Below, one piece after another: positions 30,782-44,350 of a stretch of 44,399 nt of DNA. The stretch is from a virus. The notes beneath the pieces were generated by a model. The model was not told the DNA's origin, made no database searches, and was given only the letters and a program-made list of their open reading frames with translations. The DNA lies in the IMG/VR virus record IMGVR_UViG_3300018411_000035, positions 1 to 44,399 of that record, one strand, 5' to 3'. A program made the translations under genes and the position numbers. Each line of letters opens with the position of its first letter. Within the stretch, counting starts at the first letter, position 1.

Positions 30782-31069
30782 CTATTCCCCCTTTTTTAAT
30801 TTCTCTTTAAATTCATCTGTTGGTATAAAAGGCACGCTATTATAACTACATGCGTCTGCAAGTACTCGGCGTGCACCTTCTATGTTAGTTGGGTTTTTAA
30901 TTGTAAATTCATGTAATCCTTTGTCATAACAATATATACAGTTAATAACACATCCCTTAGCTTCATATCCAAAAATACTTGGACAATATGGGTTACGTCT
31001 TATTCTTTCCACTATATATTTATTATACTTTTGTAAATATTTATTTGCTATTACCTCTGCTATCCTCAT
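30782..31069 (-). CDS. Small Cys-rich protein, paralogue of the 41165-41446 gene
   Basis: The 95-residue product starts at ATG behind GGAGGGCAAT. The N-terminal RIAEVIANKYLQKYNKYIVER helix is followed by four Cys (YCPSIFGYEAKGCVINCIYC), likely a single zinc site, and a C-terminal FIPTDEFKEKL. The 41165-41446 product has the same order (TIAEVILNRYLKEYNEEMIDR, GCATTFGYKTQCEGNCREC, EYNPTEEGKRLF), so the two genes are duplicates. Role unknown; one copy sits in the ubiquitin-like cassette and one in the nucleotide-metabolism block. Confidence 0.6.
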   Translation of the reverse strand: MRIAEVIANKYLQKYNKYIVERIRRNPYCPSIFGYEAKGCVINCIYCYDKGLHEFTIKNPTNIEGARRVLADACSYNSVPFIPTDEFKEKLKKGE

Positions 31070-31687: not shown

Positions 31688-32536
31688 CTATATACCTCCT
31701 TGTTTTTCATAAGCTAATAATAAGTTTTCTGCTAAACTTGCCACTGTCATTAATCCAACTCCACCAGGTACAGTGGTATATTTTATATTCAGTTCATCTA
31801 ACATAGGATAATCTGATTTCTTAATATCTCCCTCTATCTTGCCATCTATTTCATTAATACCTACATCTATTATTATTTCAGGAGTATAACTAGACATTAT
31901 TTCTATCTTCTTTAGTCTTTCTGCTGTTAATAAGTCCTGTTTTCCTACTGCACTAATAATTAATTGTGGTTGCATGTTGTATACGTATGCAGGTGCAGAG
32001 AATGGAGTTTTAGAATGTATCTGAACTGTTGTAGCATCATTTTCTAATAGTAAATTATACATTGGCTTTCCAACTATATCACTTCTACCTATTATCATAG
32101 CATGTTTACCACTAGGTTCAAATTCTAATTCTTTTAGTATTGTCATTATGCCTTTTGGTGTACATGGTGTAAACTCTGTAAACTTACTTAACCCATCAAC
32201 GTCTTTCAACGGAGTTATTGAATTTAATACATTCTTTTCATTAATATGAGAAGGTAATGGTAATTGTACCAATATACCATGAACACTATCGTCAGCGTTA
32301 AACATGTTTATCATTTCAACAAGTTCATCTTCTTCAACATCATTTTCTAGTCCTATTGTAAAACTAGCCATACCACATTCTGCTATGAACTTCTCTTTGT
32401 TCTTTACATACTTGTGAGAAGCTATATTATCACCAACTATTATAGTTGCTAACTGTGGTACTGCTTGTAGTTTTCCTACTTGTTCCTTTAACTTTACCTT
32501 AATACGTTCTTGCATTGCCTTACAATTTATTCCCAT
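31688..32536 (-). CDS. folD: FolD: methylenetetrahydrofolate dehydrogenase/cyclohydrolase
   Basis: Interconverts 5,10-methylene-THF, methenyl-THF and 10-formyl-THF with NAD(P). I choose ATG 32536 (MGINCK) behind GTGGAGGGTAAT; a GTG four codons upstream overlaps that site. The roughly 282-residue protein has all family motifs in order: SHKYVKNKEK with the catalytic Tyr and Lys, VHGILVQLPLP, PLKDVDG, PCTPKGI, the dinucleotide site IGRSDIVGKP, and PGGVGLMT. It is full length, without truncation. A folate enzyme is rare in a phage of this size and pairs naturally with the following ThyX-like gene. Confidence 0.95.
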   Translation of the reverse strand: MGINCKAMQERIKVKLKEQVGKLQAVPQLATIIVGDNIASHKYVKNKEKFIAECGMASFTIGLENDVEEDELVEMINMFNADDSVHGILVQLPLPSHINEKNVLNSITPLKDVDGLSKFTEFTPCTPKGIMTILKELEFEPSGKHAMIIGRSDIVGKPMYNLLLENDATTVQIHSKTPFSAPAYVYNMQPQLIISAVGKQDLLTAERLKKIEIMSSYTPEIIIDVGINEIDGKIEGDIKKSDYPMLDELNIKYTTVPGGVGLMTVASLAENLLLAYEKQGGI

Positions 32537-32712
32537 ATTACCCTCCACTTATCGTTTATATCTATAACTAATGGTACAGGATTTTTACCTATACTCATAA
32601 TTATGCCATCTACTATCTTGTATTTTGCTCCATCTTGTTTTACCAGTGTTGATTCTTTATCTTTTCTTCTAGTTATTAATGTTAGTGCTTCTATTATACT
32701 AAGACCAGTCAC
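32527..32712 (-). CDS. Unknown 61-residue protein
   Basis: Starts at GTG 32712 behind AGGTGAAGAATA, which is inside the end of the previous gene, and overlaps the start of folD by ten bases. The product has an N-terminal helix, a basic RRKDKE patch and beta strands ending in WRVIWE. No family is recognised. Tight overlaps on both sides and a good ribosome binding site support it as a real gene translated in series. Confidence 0.5.
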   Translation of the reverse strand: MTGLSIIEALTLITRRKDKESTLVKQDGAKYKIVDGIIMSIGKNPVPLVIDINDKWRVIWE

Positions 32713-36953: not shown

Positions 36954-37154
36954 CTAATCAAGTACATTGTCCATTTCGTCTGATACATAATCAATACTGT
37001 TACATATTGTTAAACTATCTTCATCACTATCATATACTCCGTCAACATATCTATCAAAAACACAACCATTACACGACCTACTCTTACACCATTCTCTTTT
37101 ATTTTTAGCAAGTGTTTGGAAAGACTGTAATATTGCTTTTTCTGCATCTGTCAT
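36954..37154 (-). CDS. Small Cys-containing protein, unknown
   Basis: The 66-residue product starts at ATG overlapping the end of the preceding gene (ATGA-type overlap). It has an N-terminal helix, a C-x5-C-x2-C cluster (WCKSRSCNGCVF) that may bind zinc or iron-sulphur, and a strongly acidic C-terminal half. The neighbouring gene has a similar CKISYCHNC cluster, so the pair may be distant paralogues. Function unknown. Confidence 0.5.
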   Translation of the reverse strand: MTDAEKAILQSFQTLAKNKREWCKSRSCNGCVFDRYVDGVYDSDEDSLTICNSIDYVSDEMDNVLD

Positions 37155-37339
37155 TCTTTATCACTTCTTTCTTTAATATAATCTTTATATTCTTTTCCAT
37201 ATCTTACACAATAAGCACTTGGCATTGGTGTTTTGAATAGCTTTTTCAATATACAATTATGACAATAACTGATTTTGCATATTGCTTTTACATTTTTACC
37301 TAGTGCTATTTTTTCTGATTTTGTATAAGGAAGTGTCAT
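37151..37339 (-). CDS. Small basic Cys-containing protein, unknown
   Basis: The 62-residue product starts at ATG behind GTAGGAGGTGTTTAA, just after the E1-like gene. CKISYCHNC in the middle and a further Cys (AYCVRYG) could form a metal site. It is basic and shares the helix-then-Cys-cluster layout of the next gene. No family is recognised. Confidence 0.5.
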   Translation of the reverse strand: MTLPYTKSEKIALGKNVKAICKISYCHNCILKKLFKTPMPSAYCVRYGKEYKDYIKERSDKE

Positions 37340-37350
37340 TTAAACACCTC

Positions 37351-38019
37351 CTACCATCTTTCCACTAAGTAGTTGTCACCTAACATATCATACAGTATTT
37401 CATTAGGTACTGCAATACCATTTGTCCAATTTATCATTTGCCTTACTGCTATACTTGCTGTAGTCATTGCAGATGTTACTACTGACTTAGATGTACCACA
37501 AGCTGATACTTCTGCTTGTTCATCAGTATATAGTGTACTTTCATATGATTTGATTTGTTTTAAATCCATAGGATTTACAGTATATATTCTACACATATCA
37601 AGTCCCATTCTAGTTTCAATAACTAGTTTAACTTTAGGTTGTAGTTTTAGTGCTTCTTTGAATATTTCTTCTCTTGAACTCATAGTGTCTGTTAGTACAA
37701 ATACTACACCTTCTAATAGTGTATCACCAGTTACTTTTTCATTGTGTGCAGTATAATTCATACCACCAAATCTTATTGCATTATCTATGTTAGCAGTTAC
37801 TTTTGGCATACCTATACTCTTAATTGTAAATGCTTGATTTGGAATGTTATGATTTTCTACTATATCAAAGTCCCACACATGTACATCTTTAACACCTAAT
37901 TTAGCTAACATCATTACTAACCATGAAGCAGTAGCACCACCACCCACAACATTTATAGGGTAGTTAAACGTTCTATTATCAAATATATCAAGTTGGCGAT
38001 TATAATTTATTTCTATCAT
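37351..38019 (-). CDS. E1/ThiF-like ubiquitin-like-protein activating enzyme
   Basis: Predicted to adenylate the C terminus of a ubiquitin-like protein and perhaps hold it as a thioester. The 222-residue Rossmann protein has the nucleotide loop VVGGGATAS (24-32), the acidic ribose/Mg site VWDFDIVENHN (48-58, Asp50/Asp52), the PNQ remainder of the usual N-x2-R-Q motif (60-62), Lys73, and Asp111 in LTDT. The arginine finger expected just before Gln62 is replaced by Asn61. Cys174 in SACGTSKS is a candidate catalytic Cys. It is the minimal ThiF length, without accessory domains. The E2-, JAB- and Ubl-like genes upstream make a conjugation role likely. Confidence 0.85.
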   Translation of the reverse strand: MIEINYNRQLDIFDNRTFNYPINVVGGGATASWLVMMLAKLGVKDVHVWDFDIVENHNIPNQAFTIKSIGMPKVTANIDNAIRFGGMNYTAHNEKVTGDTLLEGVVFVLTDTMSSREEIFKEALKLQPKVKLVIETRMGLDMCRIYTVNPMDLKQIKSYESTLYTDEQAEVSACGTSKSVVTSAMTTASIAVRQMINWTNGIAVPNEILYDMLGDNYLVERW

Positions 38020-38629
38020 TTTCTTCTCTCTCCTTCTGTTTCTTTAATTTCATATCTTCTCTGTATTTTATTTCTTTTTCATAACATATTGTGCATTTAG
38101 TAAAGCCTAACCTATCATTTGGCTTTACACACGTTACGCACAACCCATTATTTATTTTTTCATTATATCTTTTTTTCTGTATTTCACTATATCTGATGTG
38201 ACAACTTGTACAAAACAACTTGCCCTCTCTATCATTTGGCATTCCACATTCTGTACACAAGCCTTGTTCTTTTCTGTTTTGTCTTATTTTTGCTCTCGAA
38301 TTTCTTACGTATTCTTTTTGTTTTTCATGTTGTTTTTCTTTTTTAATATTATATTTCACAAAACATTCATTACATAATCGTTCTCCTGGTCTGTCGTTTT
38401 CCTTTTTACATTTCTTACATAATCCTTTTTCTTTTTCCTGTTTTTTTATTTTAGCTTTATTTGCACATTCACTACACAACACTTTGTTTTCTCTATCATT
38501 TGTTTTACCACAATTTACGCATAAGCCTTGTTCCCTTCTTTTATCTCTTAGTTTTGTTCTTGATTTTCTGTTTATTTCTTTTGTTATCTTATATGCTTTT
38601 TGAGGACTTCTGAATTTCGACATACCCAT
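38000..38629 (-). CDS. Protein with four zinc-knuckle repeats inside the Ubl cassette
   Basis: I choose ATG 38629 (MGMSKFRS) behind GAGGACTAAA. The roughly 209-residue, very basic protein has four copies of L-C-x2-C-x3-NDR-x5-C-x2-C (for example LCVNCGKTNDRENKVLCSEC), each with two CxxC pairs 11 residues apart, joined by Lys/Arg-rich helices. Similar modules occur in phage HNH-associated and DNA-binding proteins. Its end overlaps the E1-like start by 20 bases, implying coupled translation. It could be a nucleic-acid binder, a selfish-element remnant, or a zinc adaptor for conjugation; the sequence does not decide. Confidence 0.7.
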   Translation of the reverse strand: MGMSKFRSPQKAYKITKEINRKSRTKLRDKRREQGLCVNCGKTNDRENKVLCSECANKAKIKKQEKEKGLCKKCKKENDRPGERLCNECFVKYNIKKEKQHEKQKEYVRNSRAKIRQNRKEQGLCTECGMPNDREGKLFCTSCHIRYSEIQKKRYNEKINNGLCVTCVKPNDRLGFTKCTICYEKEIKYREDMKLKKQKEREENDRNKL

Positions 38630-38630
38630 T

Positions 38631-38858
38631 TTAGTCCTCAATTCCATCTACTATATCAAGTATTCTTATACCAAAAATTACTTGGTTAGTAGTGTATATG
38701 TTGTGACGTTTACGTTGTTGCTCTGTTGTGTTTTCTTCCAATACTTCTGATACTGTCTGAATATTAATATCTACCTTTTCTCTTTTGAACTTCTTTACTA
38801 TCTTATTAATCATAATCATGCCCACTTTCGTAGGCATATTATCTAAGTTAATATTCAT
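38631..38858 (-). CDS. Small helical protein in the Ubl cassette, unknown
   Basis: I choose ATG 38858 (MNINLDNMPTK) behind TGGGGGATGATGAA; a TTG five codons upstream overlaps that site. The 75-residue product is helical and mixed-charge with a Thr/Gln-rich middle (EENTTEQQRKRHN). It sits between the JAB-like and zinc-knuckle genes, so it may be a component of the same system. It does not look like a beta-grasp protein, and I do not recognise it. Confidence 0.55.
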   Translation of the reverse strand: MNINLDNMPTKVGMIMINKIVKKFKREKVDINIQTVSEVLEENTTEQQRKRHNIYTTNQVIFGIRILDIVDGIED

Positions 38859-38881
38859 TTCATCATCCCCCAATGATTTAT

Positions 38882-39796
38882 TTATCTTGGATATCTGTTC
38901 TTTGCAAACTCTACTATTCCTAGTGCTTCTTCAAATGTTGCTTCTAATTGTGAATTACATTCTGCATTTATAGCATCTATTATGTCATGTACAGCTAATA
39001 CTGCATTACTTTCTGATTTTACATTTGCTATTACCATCATTTCACTTTCTGAGAAGTATGCAGGTATTGTTGTTTCATTCCAAAAACTATCTTCTTCTAC
39101 CTTTATTTCCTTTTCTGTTCCCACTATTTTTAGTTGATGACTTGTGTTTTTTTTTGTATCTACATCATCTTCCCACCATCTTTTTCCATAACCATAGTGT
39201 CCACCTTGATAGCCATTTCCATATACTACTGTTCCGTACTTTTTTTCTGTTACCTTCTCTTTCATTTCAGCTTTAACTTCTTCTTCTAAATCTTTTGAGT
39301 ATGGTTTATATTCTGACCATTTTACATTCTCATATGTTAGATTACCTTTGAAGTCATATAAAGTAAATTCCATTTCTCCTGATTTGTTAGCTATTACACG
39401 TATAAACCAGTCATTGTGTTCTCCAAATGTTTTCATTTGACTATTATCTTGTGCAGAAGGAGAAACACCCATATTAACATGGCTGTGTCCCCATAGCTTT
39501 ATATTATTCCATATCTCTACACCATCATCTTGACTTAACAGTTCAGTAGCAAAATCACTTAATCCATCAGGTGTTATTTCACATGTTGCAGAATGAACTT
39601 CTTGTTTGAATAACATTACGTCTGTTATTAAGAATATATTATTTGCATATGCTTGAACTGTTCCAAGCCATCCAATCTCTTTATCGCAATGTCTTACATA
39701 ATAACTCATTTTCTCTAATGCTTTTGGTAGTATTTTGATTAATGGTTCTTGTATTGCTAGTATTTTTGTAACTACATTCATTCTTTCCTTAAACAT
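38882..39796 (-). CDS. JAB/JAMM-family metalloprotease (deubiquitinase-like)
   Basis: Zinc isopeptidase or processing protease. The start is ATG 39796 with GGAGG overlapping the E2-like stop. The JAMM motif is complete: Glu40 in DKEIGWLG, then HSH (104-106), seven residues, Ser114 and Asp117 in HSHVNMGVSPSAQD. This is the exact HSHx7SxxD metal-ligand pattern of eukaryotic Rpn11/AMSH and of the JAB proteins in bacterial E1/E2 operons. The C-terminal half (about 190-304) is unrelated, charged, with a Gly/Tyr-rich stretch (YGNGYQGGHYGYGK). It likely cuts the triple Ubl protein and/or removes it from targets. Confidence 0.9.
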   Translation of the reverse strand: MFKERMNVVTKILAIQEPLIKILPKALEKMSYYVRHCDKEIGWLGTVQAYANNIFLITDVMLFKQEVHSATCEITPDGLSDFATELLSQDDGVEIWNNIKLWGHSHVNMGVSPSAQDNSQMKTFGEHNDWFIRVIANKSGEMEFTLYDFKGNLTYENVKWSEYKPYSKDLEEEVKAEMKEKVTEKKYGTVVYGNGYQGGHYGYGKRWWEDDVDTKKNTSHQLKIVGTEKEIKVEEDSFWNETTIPAYFSESEMMVIANVKSESNAVLAVHDIIDAINAECNSQLEATFEEALGIVEFAKNRYPR

Positions 39797-39797
39797 A

Positions 39798-41042
39798 CTA
39801 TTTTACCTCCATGTATTGTATTCCTGCTACGTATCTACCTTCTTTAACTCGTCTAACCATTTCCACTTGAAGCTCTCTATTTCTTTCATCACTTACAAAC
39901 TCACCAGTATATTTTTGTCTTTCTAATGTATTACCTTCTTCATCTACTTCATCCCAATTTGTATAGCACTTACCTGCTCCATCATCTTCATTTATGCTTT
40001 CAAGGTAATTAACAAGTACATCTGCAAGCATTGCCCATTCTCTATTCATAATACATTCAGCTATTAGTGTTGATGCATTACCTAAGCAACCACTACCAGT
40101 TTCACTTACATGTGGATGATGACACGCTCCCCATACACTGTGTCTAATATTCTGTATATCTCTATTAAAGAATAGTGTTTGACCATTTTGTAATCTAACT
40201 TCTATTCTAAATCTTCCCATTCTAAATCTTTTAACACCTTTTTTAGTTCTAGCTTTAGCAAACAGTTCAACTGTATCTAATACTAAATCACCATTTTCAT
40301 TGAAGAATACTTCTTCTATTTTCTTATTGCTCTCCATTGCTTTAATTTCAGATATTAATTTAGCCTTAATACCTTCCATACCACTACCTAGACCTTCTAA
40401 TTGCTTTTCAAATGATATTGCATTTAGTGAGTATTGTTTTACTTTAGCCATATATTCTTCCATTCTTTGTTTTGCTTCTCTTAACTTGTTTTCAAGGTTT
40501 CTCTTATCACTTTCAATTGTACTCATTAAGTGGCTAACTGCTTTTTGTATACTTGCTTCTCTTTCTATTCTAATTGCTTCTTCTAACTTTTCACAATATC
40601 CATCTATACTTCCAAATAAATGTTCTACAAACTTGTCCATTATAATGTTAAACAATTCGATTTCCCCTAAACTCTCATATTCCCACATATCATATAAGAA
40701 GTTTAACACCTTGTTTTCTTCATCATATTCAGCTAATACAACTTCGCCATCACCAAATTGAATTGTTCCTTCACTTGGTACAAATAATGCATCACTATAG
40801 AATTGCTTTCCAAATGCAGTGTTGCTTTCTGAATAAATCATGTCATCTGTTTTGTGACTTCCCCATATCAATACTGATAACTTGTCTTTTCTTATTTCCT
40901 TACCTATTGGCAATCCTTCTCCATGATGTATTGCTATATTAATGTTCTCTTGCATAGCCTTTGATAATTGTTTAAACCTATCACCAAATATTCTAGTATA
41001 ATCCCTTGTGTCATTGTTAAATATTATTTTTACCTCTTTCAT
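39798..41042 (-). CDS. E2-like (Prok-E2/UBC-fold) conjugating protein with coiled-coil insertion
   Basis: Predicted to receive the Ubl as a thioester and pass it to a target. The 414-residue protein starts at ATG behind AAGGGAGAGATAATA. An N-terminal domain (1-145) is followed by a long coiled coil (about 150-245). The C-terminal domain carries HHPHV (308-312), GSGCLGN (316-322, candidate catalytic Cys319) and then REWAML and VLVNYLESINEDD. This mirrors the E2 order HPN...G.ICL...W.P...L...L. One base separates it from the JAB gene. The assignment is by motif only; the N-terminal region may be a second domain such as a substrate-binding part. Confidence 0.72.
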   Translation of the reverse strand: MKEVKIIFNNDTRDYTRIFGDRFKQLSKAMQENINIAIHHGEGLPIGKEIRKDKLSVLIWGSHKTDDMIYSESNTAFGKQFYSDALFVPSEGTIQFGDGEVVLAEYDEENKVLNFLYDMWEYESLGEIELFNIIMDKFVEHLFGSIDGYCEKLEEAIRIEREASIQKAVSHLMSTIESDKRNLENKLREAKQRMEEYMAKVKQYSLNAISFEKQLEGLGSGMEGIKAKLISEIKAMESNKKIEEVFFNENGDLVLDTVELFAKARTKKGVKRFRMGRFRIEVRLQNGQTLFFNRDIQNIRHSVWGACHHPHVSETGSGCLGNASTLIAECIMNREWAMLADVLVNYLESINEDDGAGKCYTNWDEVDEEGNTLERQKYTGEFVSDERNRELQVEMVRRVKEGRYVAGIQYMEVK

Positions 41043-41069
41043 TATTATCTCTCCCTTTATAATAGTATT

Positions 41070-41165
41070 TTAATTAATATTCCACTTGCTATTAGTACAA
41101 GTTTTTTTTTCTCTTGCCAATCCTGTTATTATCAATGCGTTGCTTATTAGTGTTAGTATGACCAT
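41070..41165 (-). CDS. Possible 31-residue membrane peptide
   Basis: ATG 41165 overlaps the stop codon of the preceding gene (TAATG), suggesting coupled translation. The product begins MVILTLISNALIITGLA, a single hydrophobic helix, then a short basic tail. A run of nine A bases lies inside the frame. It fills an otherwise empty gap between two cassette genes. It is too short for a family call. Confidence 0.35.
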   Translation of the reverse strand: MVILTLISNALIITGLAREKKTCTNSKWNIN

Positions 41166-41446
41166 TATCTAAATAACCTCTTACCTTCCTCTGTTGGATT
41201 GTATTCTATACCACAGTTTATACATAAAGCTTTTAATGCACCTGGCGTTCCTTCTTTTGTTTCTCTAAATTCTGATGGATTAAGTTCAAAACATTCCCTG
41301 CAATTACCTTCACATTGTGTTTTATAACCAAATGTAGTTGCACAACCATAACCACTATATAATCTATCTATCATTTCTTCATTATATTCTTTTAAATATC
41401 TATTTAATATCACCTCTGCTATCGTTAGTTTCTTTGGTTTTTTCAT
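41165..41446 (-). CDS. Small Cys-rich protein, paralogue of the 30782-31069 gene
   Basis: The 93-residue product starts at ATG behind TAGGAGGTATAGA. The TIAEVILNRYLKEYNEEMIDR helix precedes a Cys cluster (YGCATTFGYKTQCEGNCREC) that may bind zinc; two more Cys follow (ALCINCG). The order and spacing match the 30782-31069 product, so they are duplicates. It lies just after the terminator of the Ubl gene and before the E2-like gene, and may or may not belong to that system. Confidence 0.6.
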   Translation of the reverse strand: MKKPKKLTIAEVILNRYLKEYNEEMIDRLYSGYGCATTFGYKTQCEGNCRECFELNPSEFRETKEGTPGALKALCINCGIEYNPTEEGKRLFR

Positions 41447-41474
41447 TCTATACCTCCTATTTTATTTGATATGT

Positions 41475-41498
41475 AAAAGGAGAGCATTCCTGCTCTCC
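41475..41498 (-). terminator. Rho-independent terminator of the Ubl gene
   Basis: On the - strand the 8-bp stem GGAGAGCA/TGCTCTCC with a GGAA loop is followed by TTTTACAT. It lies a few bases after the Ubl stop codon and separates that gene from the E2/JAB/E1 genes. Confidence 0.88.
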
Positions 41499-41503
41499 AT
41501 ATA

Positions 41504-42136
41504 TTAGTTGTTTCCTTTAATCTGTTTAACTAATACTATTAACTTACTGTCTGCACCAATTACTGTATCAGTTGTTACTGAGTTTCCATCAAGTCTTACA
41601 TCATATCCAGTTGGGTCAATACTAGCTAATTCAAGTATAGCACCTACTGTTTGTGTACCCTCATATGTGAACTCACTTACTCCACCTGGAAGAATACCTA
41701 CTTTAATAGTGGATACGTTTCCTTTGATTTGTTTTACTAGAACTATTAACTTGCTATCAGCAGTAATTCTAGTATCAGCAGTTACAGTAGTTCCATCAAG
41801 TCTGATATCGTAGCCAGTTGCATCAAGTTCTGCCATATCAAGTAGTTCTTGTACTGTTAATGTACCATCAACTACATATTCTGTTACACCACCTGGTAAT
41901 ACACCAACTTTGATTGTTTGAACATTACCTTTAATTTGTTTAACTAATACTATTAATTTACTGTCTGCACCAATTACACTGTCTACTGCTACTGAAACAC
42001 CATCTAATCTTACATCATAACCACTTGCATCTAATCCTGCCATTTCTAATACCTTTGCTACTGTTGTACCTGCTTCTACTAAATATTCTGTAACTCCTCC
42101 TGGTAAAACTCCTACTTTAATTGTTTGATTTGTCAT
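41504..42136 (-). CDS. Triple tandem ubiquitin-like (beta-grasp) protein
   Basis: Starts at ATG behind AAAAGGAGAG. The 210-residue protein is three repeats with a 69-residue period: TIKVGVLPGGVTEY, then (T/A)...GYDVRLDG, then ADSKLIVLVKQIKGN. Units end at Gly70, Gly139 and Gly208; Gly208 is followed by two Asn. Strand-turn-strand, helix (TVAKVLEMAGL-like), strand order fits a ThiS/MoaD/ubiquitin-type beta-grasp fold. The E1-, E2- and JAB-like genes in the same strand suggest it is processed after KG and conjugated, like a poly-ubiquitin precursor. The repeats are nearly identical in their last 15 residues although their DNA differs at many silent sites. It has its own leader structure and terminator. 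Confidence 0.8.
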   Translation of the reverse strand: MTNQTIKVGVLPGGVTEYLVEAGTTVAKVLEMAGLDASGYDVRLDGVSVAVDSVIGADSKLIVLVKQIKGNVQTIKVGVLPGGVTEYVVDGTLTVQELLDMAELDATGYDIRLDGTTVTADTRITADSKLIVLVKQIKGNVSTIKVGILPGGVSEFTYEGTQTVGAILELASIDPTGYDVRLDGNSVTTDTVIGADSKLIVLVKQIKGNN

Positions 42137-43708: not shown

Positions 43709-44350
43709 TTATTCAGTTTTTGTTTGTTGCATGTTGAACATATTTTGTCCACCACTTAACATAGACATCATCATCATACTTTTCATATCTATATCTTTTC
43801 CCATAGCCATTAACATCATAGGATTTATTCCCCCGTTAGTACCACCCATTCCATTCATAGCCTGCATTAACATTAGTGACTTCATATCAAGACCTTCATT
43901 TTCTTTATCGTCTTTCATCATTAACATCATCATCATTGGGTTCATTCCATTCATTGCATTTCCAGTACCCATATTAAATAAGCAAGTAACCTTACTCCAA
44001 AATCCAAATCCAAATAGATTGATTTCCTTTAATAAATTACCTTTAGTTCCTAGTTTTATATTTACTGCTTGTAACGAACCATTATCTGCAACCTTTAACA
44101 CTTGATAGTAATTATTCTTAGCCTTTACTACATCACCTGGTGCAACATCTTGTGTTGGCATTATAAACATAAAGTCATTTGCATCTTCTACAACCATATC
44201 CATTTGATTCTCTATTTGTCCTGTGGTAGTATTGTATCTTACATATTCGTTTTCTGCTCTTTTAATAGCTATATCTCCACTCATAGTCAATGCTAATTCT
44301 CCATTTTTTATTGCTCCAAAATCTCCAAACATATTACTTAATCCTTTCAT
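43709..44350 (-). CDS. Methionine-rich protein, unknown
   Basis: First gene of the leftward module. The 213-residue product starts at ATG behind GGGAGAGG. Residues 1-115 look like a beta-rich domain (GELALTMSGDIAIKRAENEY, then VVKAKNNYYQVLKVADNG). The rest is extremely Met-rich and repetitive (NPMMMMLMMKDD, SLMLMQAMNGMGG, NPMMLMAMGKDIDMKSMMMM), with Gly/Asn spacers. That part might be an amphipathic, membrane-active or phase-separating tail. The family is not recognised. Being first in the operon it is likely made early. Confidence 0.6.
   Translation of the reverse strand: MKGLSNMFGDFGAIKNGELALTMSGDIAIKRAENEYVRYNTTTGQIENQMDMVVEDANDFMFIMPTQDVAPGDVVKAKNNYYQVLKVADNGSLQAVNIKLGTKGNLLKEINLFGFGFWSKVTCLFNMGTGNAMNGMNPMMMMLMMKDDKENEGLDMKSLMLMQAMNGMGGTNGGINPMMLMAMGKDIDMKSMMMMSMLSGGQNMFNMQQTKTE

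Follow-up and report, generated by a model that had tools for sequence, protein, structure and literature searches.

Does a tailed phage encode a ubiquitin-type conjugation machine of its own? Ubiquitin-type conjugation in bacteria has been studied chiefly as an anti-phage weapon, and the machine has so far been known from cells, not from phages. The question is raised by a 44,399-base IMG/VR virus record (the window, that is, the whole stretch of DNA analysed), in which a first-pass annotation had recognized the signatures of a ubiquitin-like modifier (Ubl), a protein resembling E2, a protease of the JAB type and an E1-like enzyme. Our results indicate that these four genes probably constitute a complete phage-encoded ubiquitin-type conjugation cassette, which this phage shares with considerably more than a hundred viral sequences related to it. 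A complete and conserved phage-borne version would turn the anti-phage picture round, would offer a small, testable set of proteins with which to ask what a phage gains from protein tagging, and would add a new branch to the question of the origin of E2 enzymes.

The window belongs to a tailed phage (caudovirus): its + strand bears the terminase, portal and head protease/capsid genes, and DNA polymerase, exonuclease and HNH proteins are encoded on the − strand. The four cassette genes are all − strand genes and occupy the right-hand end of that arm of the contig, and Shine–Dalgarno-like sequences precede each of them. The open reading frames are where the initial reading had placed them, and its assignment of the four components held in profile, structure and synteny tests. 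The region comprises the following features:

41504..42136, − strand: tri-Ubl modifier, Pfam SAMP2 (2.5e-9) on 3 stretches, three beta-grasp repeats of ~67 aa
41479..41498, − strand: intrinsic terminator directly past the Ubl gene, hairpin GGAGAGCAGGAATGCTCTCC, then TTTT
41165..41446, − strand: small Cys-containing ORF between the Ubl and E2 genes (from the ORF list)
39798..41042, − strand: E2-like protein of 414 aa, UBC-like C-terminal domain with putative catalytic C319
38882..39796, − strand: JAB/JAMM metalloprotease, E40 and H104-x-H106-x7-S114-x2-D117
38631..38873, − strand: small ORF between the JAB and zinc protein genes, function unassigned (from the ORF list)
38000..38647, − strand: Cys-rich zinc-ribbon-like protein in the JAB–E1 interval, repeated CxxC pairs, DZR_2 at 0.005 (below cut-off)
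37351..38019, − strand: E1-like ThiF-fold adenylating enzyme of 222 aa, Pfam ThiF 4.4e-14, candidate thioester Cys174

No homolog of either small ORF or of the zinc-ribbon-like protein was found among the related cassette loci, and the latter is counted in the operon by position only.

The E1-like protein consists of a single ThiF domain that scores over the Pfam cut-off, and its family profile matched UBA5 in the PDB (2.8e-18), as well as ThiF, MoeB, Cap2 and BubCD. Residues G26, G28, S32, G42, D50, D52, N58, Q62, K73, D111, R116 and C174 are invariant in 85/85 sequences; the last of these is the cysteine that had been proposed as catalytic from the window alone. An ordinary ThiF/MoeB biosynthesis gene was rejected because E2 and JAB are co-inherited with it. 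The JAB protein likewise carries the perfect motif ascribed to it, HSHVNMGVSPSAQD, that is, HxHx7SxxD. Together with the upstream glutamate this forms the zinc site of JAB/JAMM proteases, and it is invariant in the 80–81 relatives compared (E40 in 80/80; H104, H106, S114 and D117 in 81/81). The window protein alone matched Pfam Prok-JAB below threshold (E 0.014), while the family profile found Rpn11, BRCC36 and JAMM1 in the PDB, the best match being Rpn11 at 4e-4.

The modifier scores over the Pfam cut-off for SAMP2 (PF21965; 37.8 versus 27 bits, E 2.5e-9) and under that of the stricter NCBIfam SAMP2 equivalog (23 versus 70 bits). The PDB matches of its family profile include SAMP2 (4.5e-7), one of the SAMP2 chains being part of a complex with JAMM1. 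Checked against the possibility that the repeats are not beta-grasp at all, the proposed tandem beta-grasp architecture stands, the fold being of the SAMP2/ThiS type, but the number of repeats has to be corrected to three. Each is 67 residues long, with mutual identities of 69–72%; another phage (L048) has four tandem units.

Each repeat of the window Ubl ends in KQIKGN, and the whole protein in ...KGNN. Among 66 Ubl ORFs, 53 contain [KR]GN and 24 end exactly in KGN, most of the others ending in KGN followed by 1–3 residues; KGN/RGN occurs 10.7 times in every 1000 residues of Ubl sequence, versus 0.29 in other ORFs. These Lys-Gly-Asn unit ends are a feature absent from the first-pass annotation. 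Since nearly all units end in this way, the glycine is not terminal, one capping residue following it in most cases, and it has to be freed; going by position only, release by JAB would be the simplest and most obvious route. A terminator lies within 80 nt past the gene in 21/66 Ubl ORFs, including that of the window (41498–41479), versus 8/250 E2, JAB and E1 genes (Fisher 3e-10, uncorrected for the relatedness of the loci), a pattern consistent with larger amounts of the modifier than of the cassette enzymes. In one phage subclade the Ubl is without a C-terminal glycine while E1, E2 and JAB are intact (L005:3200-3436, L065:5121-5729); there the Ubl-like protein ends in ..KMDNALAA or carries a fused further domain.

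The E2-like protein has a disordered N-terminus, a long coiled coil (~146–219) and a UBC-like domain (~222–375) with the motif H309-P-H311 ... C319-L-G. Alone, it matched no E2 family in Pfam, and the full-length family profile drew coiled-coil noise from the PDB; the C-terminal domain alone worked. The nine best PDB matches of the domain profile are UBE2L3-type chains (E 0.022–0.04), with HPHvsssgnaCl aligned on HPNIDEKGQVCL, i.e. HPH...C on HPN...C, and one member of the family matches UQ_con at 3.3e-4. Confidence in the model of the full-length protein is confined to the C-terminal part. The domain modelled from 79 sequences (pLDDT 90.4, pTM 0.83) shows a helix, a beta-meander, the HPH motif, the predicted catalytic Cys and three helices, in that order. 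When it was compared with 350,542 PDB chains by Foldseek, the top four matches were E2 enzymes, at E 0.011–0.14 and with the distant TM scores of 0.3–0.4, and no match fell under 1e-3. Each of these matches is weak alone, and all of them point to the same cysteine. Thus the initial reading, which stood to fall if this protein lacked a UBC fold, survives in the form of a predicted UBC topology with the putative catalytic Cys past an HP(N/H) motif, the likeness to known E2s being distant.

Conservation in the family centres on the same motif: C319 is present in 82/82 sequences, G321 in 81/82, P310 in 78/82, H311 in 79/82 and H309 in 59/82 (window numbering), and with the domain profile the cysteine is found in 113/116 E2 domains from phage and genome loci. 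The proteins differ widely in length (166–1115 aa). Their catalytic domain is close to the C-terminus, and the cysteine is preceded by 220–750 residues of variable sequence. It is this variable arm that we therefore propose may pick the targets. Several loci (L015, L017, L020, L026, L045, L056, L086, L088, L094 and L095) have two E2-like genes, and in some second copies the CxG motif or the catalytic cysteine has been lost (L088:1429-2310, L094:10902-11867), like E2 variants.

How far the cassette behaves as a unit was assessed in relatives. Among annotated phages, tblastn with the window E1 found 35 records at 29–31% identity, including Flavobacterium psychrophilum phages (FpV4 and its kin), Xanthomonas and Erwinia jumbo phages, Dulem virus 41 and a human-gut phage. 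In these, Ubl, E2-like and JAB genes adjoin E1, JAB being missing in the Xanthomonas jumbo phage. The cassette is present in cultured isolates too, namely FpV4 and its Flavobacterium relatives and Xanthomonas PhiXhv, where its annotation is 'thiamine biosynthesis protein' only. In such records (KT876724, PP511520, PV764602) the E1, where it has an annotation, is called either 'ThiF family protein' or 'thiamine biosynthesis protein', and the E2, JAB and Ubl are called 'hypothetical'.

Single-sequence scans with the window E2 or E1 gave no close relative among viral contigs, so that an alignment of the phage E1s was needed; with it, 171 viral contigs of IMG/VR matched. Iterated profiles were applied to 85 loci, with 80 of the 171 relatives kept, and detected E1 in 85/85, JAB in 82/85, E2 in 75/85 and a Ubl in 57/85. 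An independent scan seeded with JAB gave 182 relatives, and those with more than 9 kb of sequence contained E1 in 61/61, E2 in 60/61 and a detectable Ubl in 40/61; in both sets some loci are closely related to one another, so that the counts do not represent independent events. The Ubl is undetected in about a third of loci. Two independent seeds thus lead to relatives that share the genes, which shows that the cassette is a unit, and the recurrence of the same four genes with invariant catalytic residues in dozens of distant phages shows that it is not a product of chance.

The initial placement of the cassette next to the replisome was borne out by the DNA polymerase and exonuclease genes of the window and by helicase- and primase-like genes conserved in its nearest relatives, where the genes of a DnaB-like helicase, a primase-like protein and a polymerase are kept beside the cassette. 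Across 36 viral loci, the neighbouring genes encode PhoH, SNF2 helicase, AAA ATPases, family A DNA polymerase, ribonucleotide reductase and thymidylate synthase. In 23 related loci (for example L110:10006-11142 and L005:6897-8231) the Ubl cassette is accompanied by a retron-type reverse transcriptase (PADLOC RT_II-A, 5.9e-50), the median distance between the two being 342 bp.

The gene order had been described at first as an unfamiliar one. This view has to be abandoned, since the PRTRC operons of large plasmids (ParB-E-C-F-B-A-ThiF), which in content resemble type 6d among the operons of Iyer et al. 2006, have C (Ubl), B (E2-like), A (JAB) and ThiF (E1) in the same order as the phage cassette, which is therefore not novel in this respect. 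Both have a small single-domain E1, and the two E1s are homologous (hhalign 6.7e-18). PRTRC_B and PRTRC_A align with the phage E2 and JAB profiles at only 0.045 and 0.081, yet on the catalytic motif, and comparison of the PRTRC Ubl with the phage Ubl profile gave no match. Two further likenesses are the end of PRTRC_C, ..TKG or ..AKG, which recalls the KG/N of the phage Ubls although PRTRC_C stops at KG itself, and the setting, the PRTRC operon adjoining the plasmid-maintenance gene ParB. The curated models did not recognize the phage genes: PRTRC_ThiF scored 31.3 bits on the window E1 against a cut-off of 144.75, the NCBIfam models of PRTRC_A, B, C, E and F matched none of the ten genes of the cassette region, and the ParB, E and F partners were not found among these ten genes with NCBIfam. 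Membership of PRTRC was rejected on these grounds. In the E1 tree the PRTRC sequences stand apart on a long branch, as a group with 100/100 support, and tblastn with the window E1 found no match in plasmids, which argues against a direct plasmid origin at that sensitivity.

The bacterial ISG15-like system Bil (BilABCD) also has Ubl, E2, JAB and E1 as separate genes, and its JAB matures the Ubl (PMC11354881). However, BilD combines inactive and active adenylation domains with a Cys domain and BilB has a CEHH motif (PMC11354881), whereas the window E1 has 222 aa and one ThiF domain, and in place of the CEHH spacing (Cys, +6 Glu, +8 His, +13 His) C319 is followed by T325, I327 and M332; membership was rejected on both counts. 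The E2s of CBASS Cap2 type resemble the phage E2 in their motif P-H-[VLI]-x5-6-C (E 0.022), but Cap2 is an E2+E1 fusion that conjugates the CD-NTase, whereas the phage genes are separate and the modifier is a tri-Ubl. The PADLOC E1–E2 models match the window E1 protein only, not the E2 protein, and type II CBASS was rejected for want of an E2–E1 fusion. BubCD is a JAB–E1 fusion, present in the PDB as one 458-aa chain; JAB and E1 being separate in the phage, Bub was rejected as well. The archaeal SAMP2/UbaA/JAMM1 system is similar in the fold and sequence type of the Ubl and in its JAMM1–SAMP2 pairing, but SAMP systems as known are without an E2 and have a free Gly-Gly end, whereas the phages have KG followed by Asn, plus an E2. 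The cassette would work like a Bil- or PRTRC-type Ubl conjugation system while belonging to neither by the criteria applied. In the literature searched, which was covered in part and does not prove priority, no description of a phage E1–E2–JAB–Ubl cassette was found.

From the four folds, the strict conservation of the catalytic residues, the repeated occurrence of the cassette as a unit, the KGN ends and the replication setting, all read from sequences and models, we infer each chemical step of conjugation and the choice of targets as follows. A tri-Ubl precursor would be made in excess from a transcript that stops at its own terminator, and JAB would cut past each Lys-Gly (KG/N) to give single Ubls with a free C-terminal glycine. 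With ATP, the small ThiF-type E1 would adenylate this glycine and then bind it as a thioester on Cys174. The Ubl would be handed to Cys319 of E2, whose UBC-like C-terminal domain would transfer it to target lysines, the targets being chosen by the long variable N-terminal/coiled-coil region, as no E3 is evident; JAB may also take the tag off. The most likely function is the reversible tagging of phage or host proteins in the replication phase, for host takeover or replisome regulation.

Other functions deserve to be weighed against this. Conjugation might be directed against competing phages, in a Bil-like tagging of the virion proteins of co-infecting phages that would amount to superinfection exclusion. 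Bil is reported to attach its Ubl to the tail fibre at the centre of the tail and so to prevent assembly (cited in PMC11364771), and some relatives have an adjoining retron-type reverse transcriptase, also a defence-type gene; but the cassette is placed in the replication module, its E1 and E2 are without Bil-specific features and the E2 domain has no match in the defence library, so that we consider this explanation unlikely. The same placement bears on virion maturation, in which the tag would be put on the phage's own head or tail proteins: although lambdoid phages have a Ubl/JAB pair among their tail-assembly genes (PMC1779556), the cassette belongs to the replication arm on the other strand and is distant from the window's structural genes, and such a role seems distinctly unlikely.

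Alternatively, the system may not serve conjugation. A ThiS/MoaD-like Ubl could be a sulfur donor for thio-modification, with E1 as its adenylyltransferase and JAB as its processing enzyme. Archaeal SAMPs serve both conjugation and sulfur transfer, the phage Ubl is of SAMP2/ThiS type, and the E1 is ThiF-sized and matched by NCBIfam ThiF models at 1e-13, far below their cut-off. Sulfur transfer has no need, however, of the Cys-bearing E2 found in 60/61 JAB-seeded loci with room for it, and no rhodanese, sulfurtransferase or thiamine gene occurs among the 25 commonest neighbour families; we regard this as very unlikely. Least probable of all is that JAB and Ubl antagonize or decoy a Ubl-conjugation defence of the host (CBASS Cap2, Bil), conjugation by the phage being secondary. 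Host systems with such chemistry exist (PMC10097602), but a decoy would need only Ubl and/or JAB, whereas the phages have retained a complete E1 and a complete E2 with their catalytic residues intact.

Reversible tagging in the replication phase being the preferred reading, it is tempting to go further and to see in these loci a widespread, previously undescribed class of phage ubiquitin-type systems, with a KG/N Ubl repeated in tandem as many as four times and an E2 whose variable arm does the targeting, which would re-programme proteins covalently during genome replication and would have been exchanged horizontally with Melainabacteria and Patescibacteria. We hold the chances of this broader proposal to be evenly balanced. 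A scan of genomes yielded 37 E1 loci, the best in Melainabacteria (47–51% identity) and others in Patescibacteria, Bacteroidota and Clostridia MAGs, with the cassette present in most. The E1 profile occurs in 12/117 genomes of the Melainabacteria class, 5/287 of the Saccharibacteria phylum and 5/341 of Clostridia, each group including its centre genome. Viruses and MAGs are interleaved in the E1 tree, 16 label changes being needed. The idea that the MAG hits are all mis-binned phages seems unlikely in view of three long contigs on which tRNA synthetase, ClpB-type AAA, FemAB and band 7 genes are neighbours; these neighbourhoods suggest that some of the MAG cassettes are truly bacterial.

Several minor observations may be added. 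The cassette occurs in ~10% of the sampled Melainabacteria-class genomes (L131 being one Melainabacteria locus) and in Patescibacteria with very small genomes, where the contigs that carry it are long (L129, L130, L103, L104), and in the Patescibacteria cassettes the N-terminal segments of E2 look membrane-spanning. In the window itself, the protein encoded at 43709-44350 has a very Met-rich C-terminus and is kept just upstream of the Ubl gene in two related loci (L006, L010; 42% identity). By eye, the replication arm contains paralogue-like pairs of small Cys-containing proteins (41165-41446 with 30782-31069, and 36954-37154 with 37151-37339), and 31688-32548 looks like FolD (methylene-tetrahydrofolate dehydrogenase/cyclohydrolase), a phage metabolic gene of an unusual kind.
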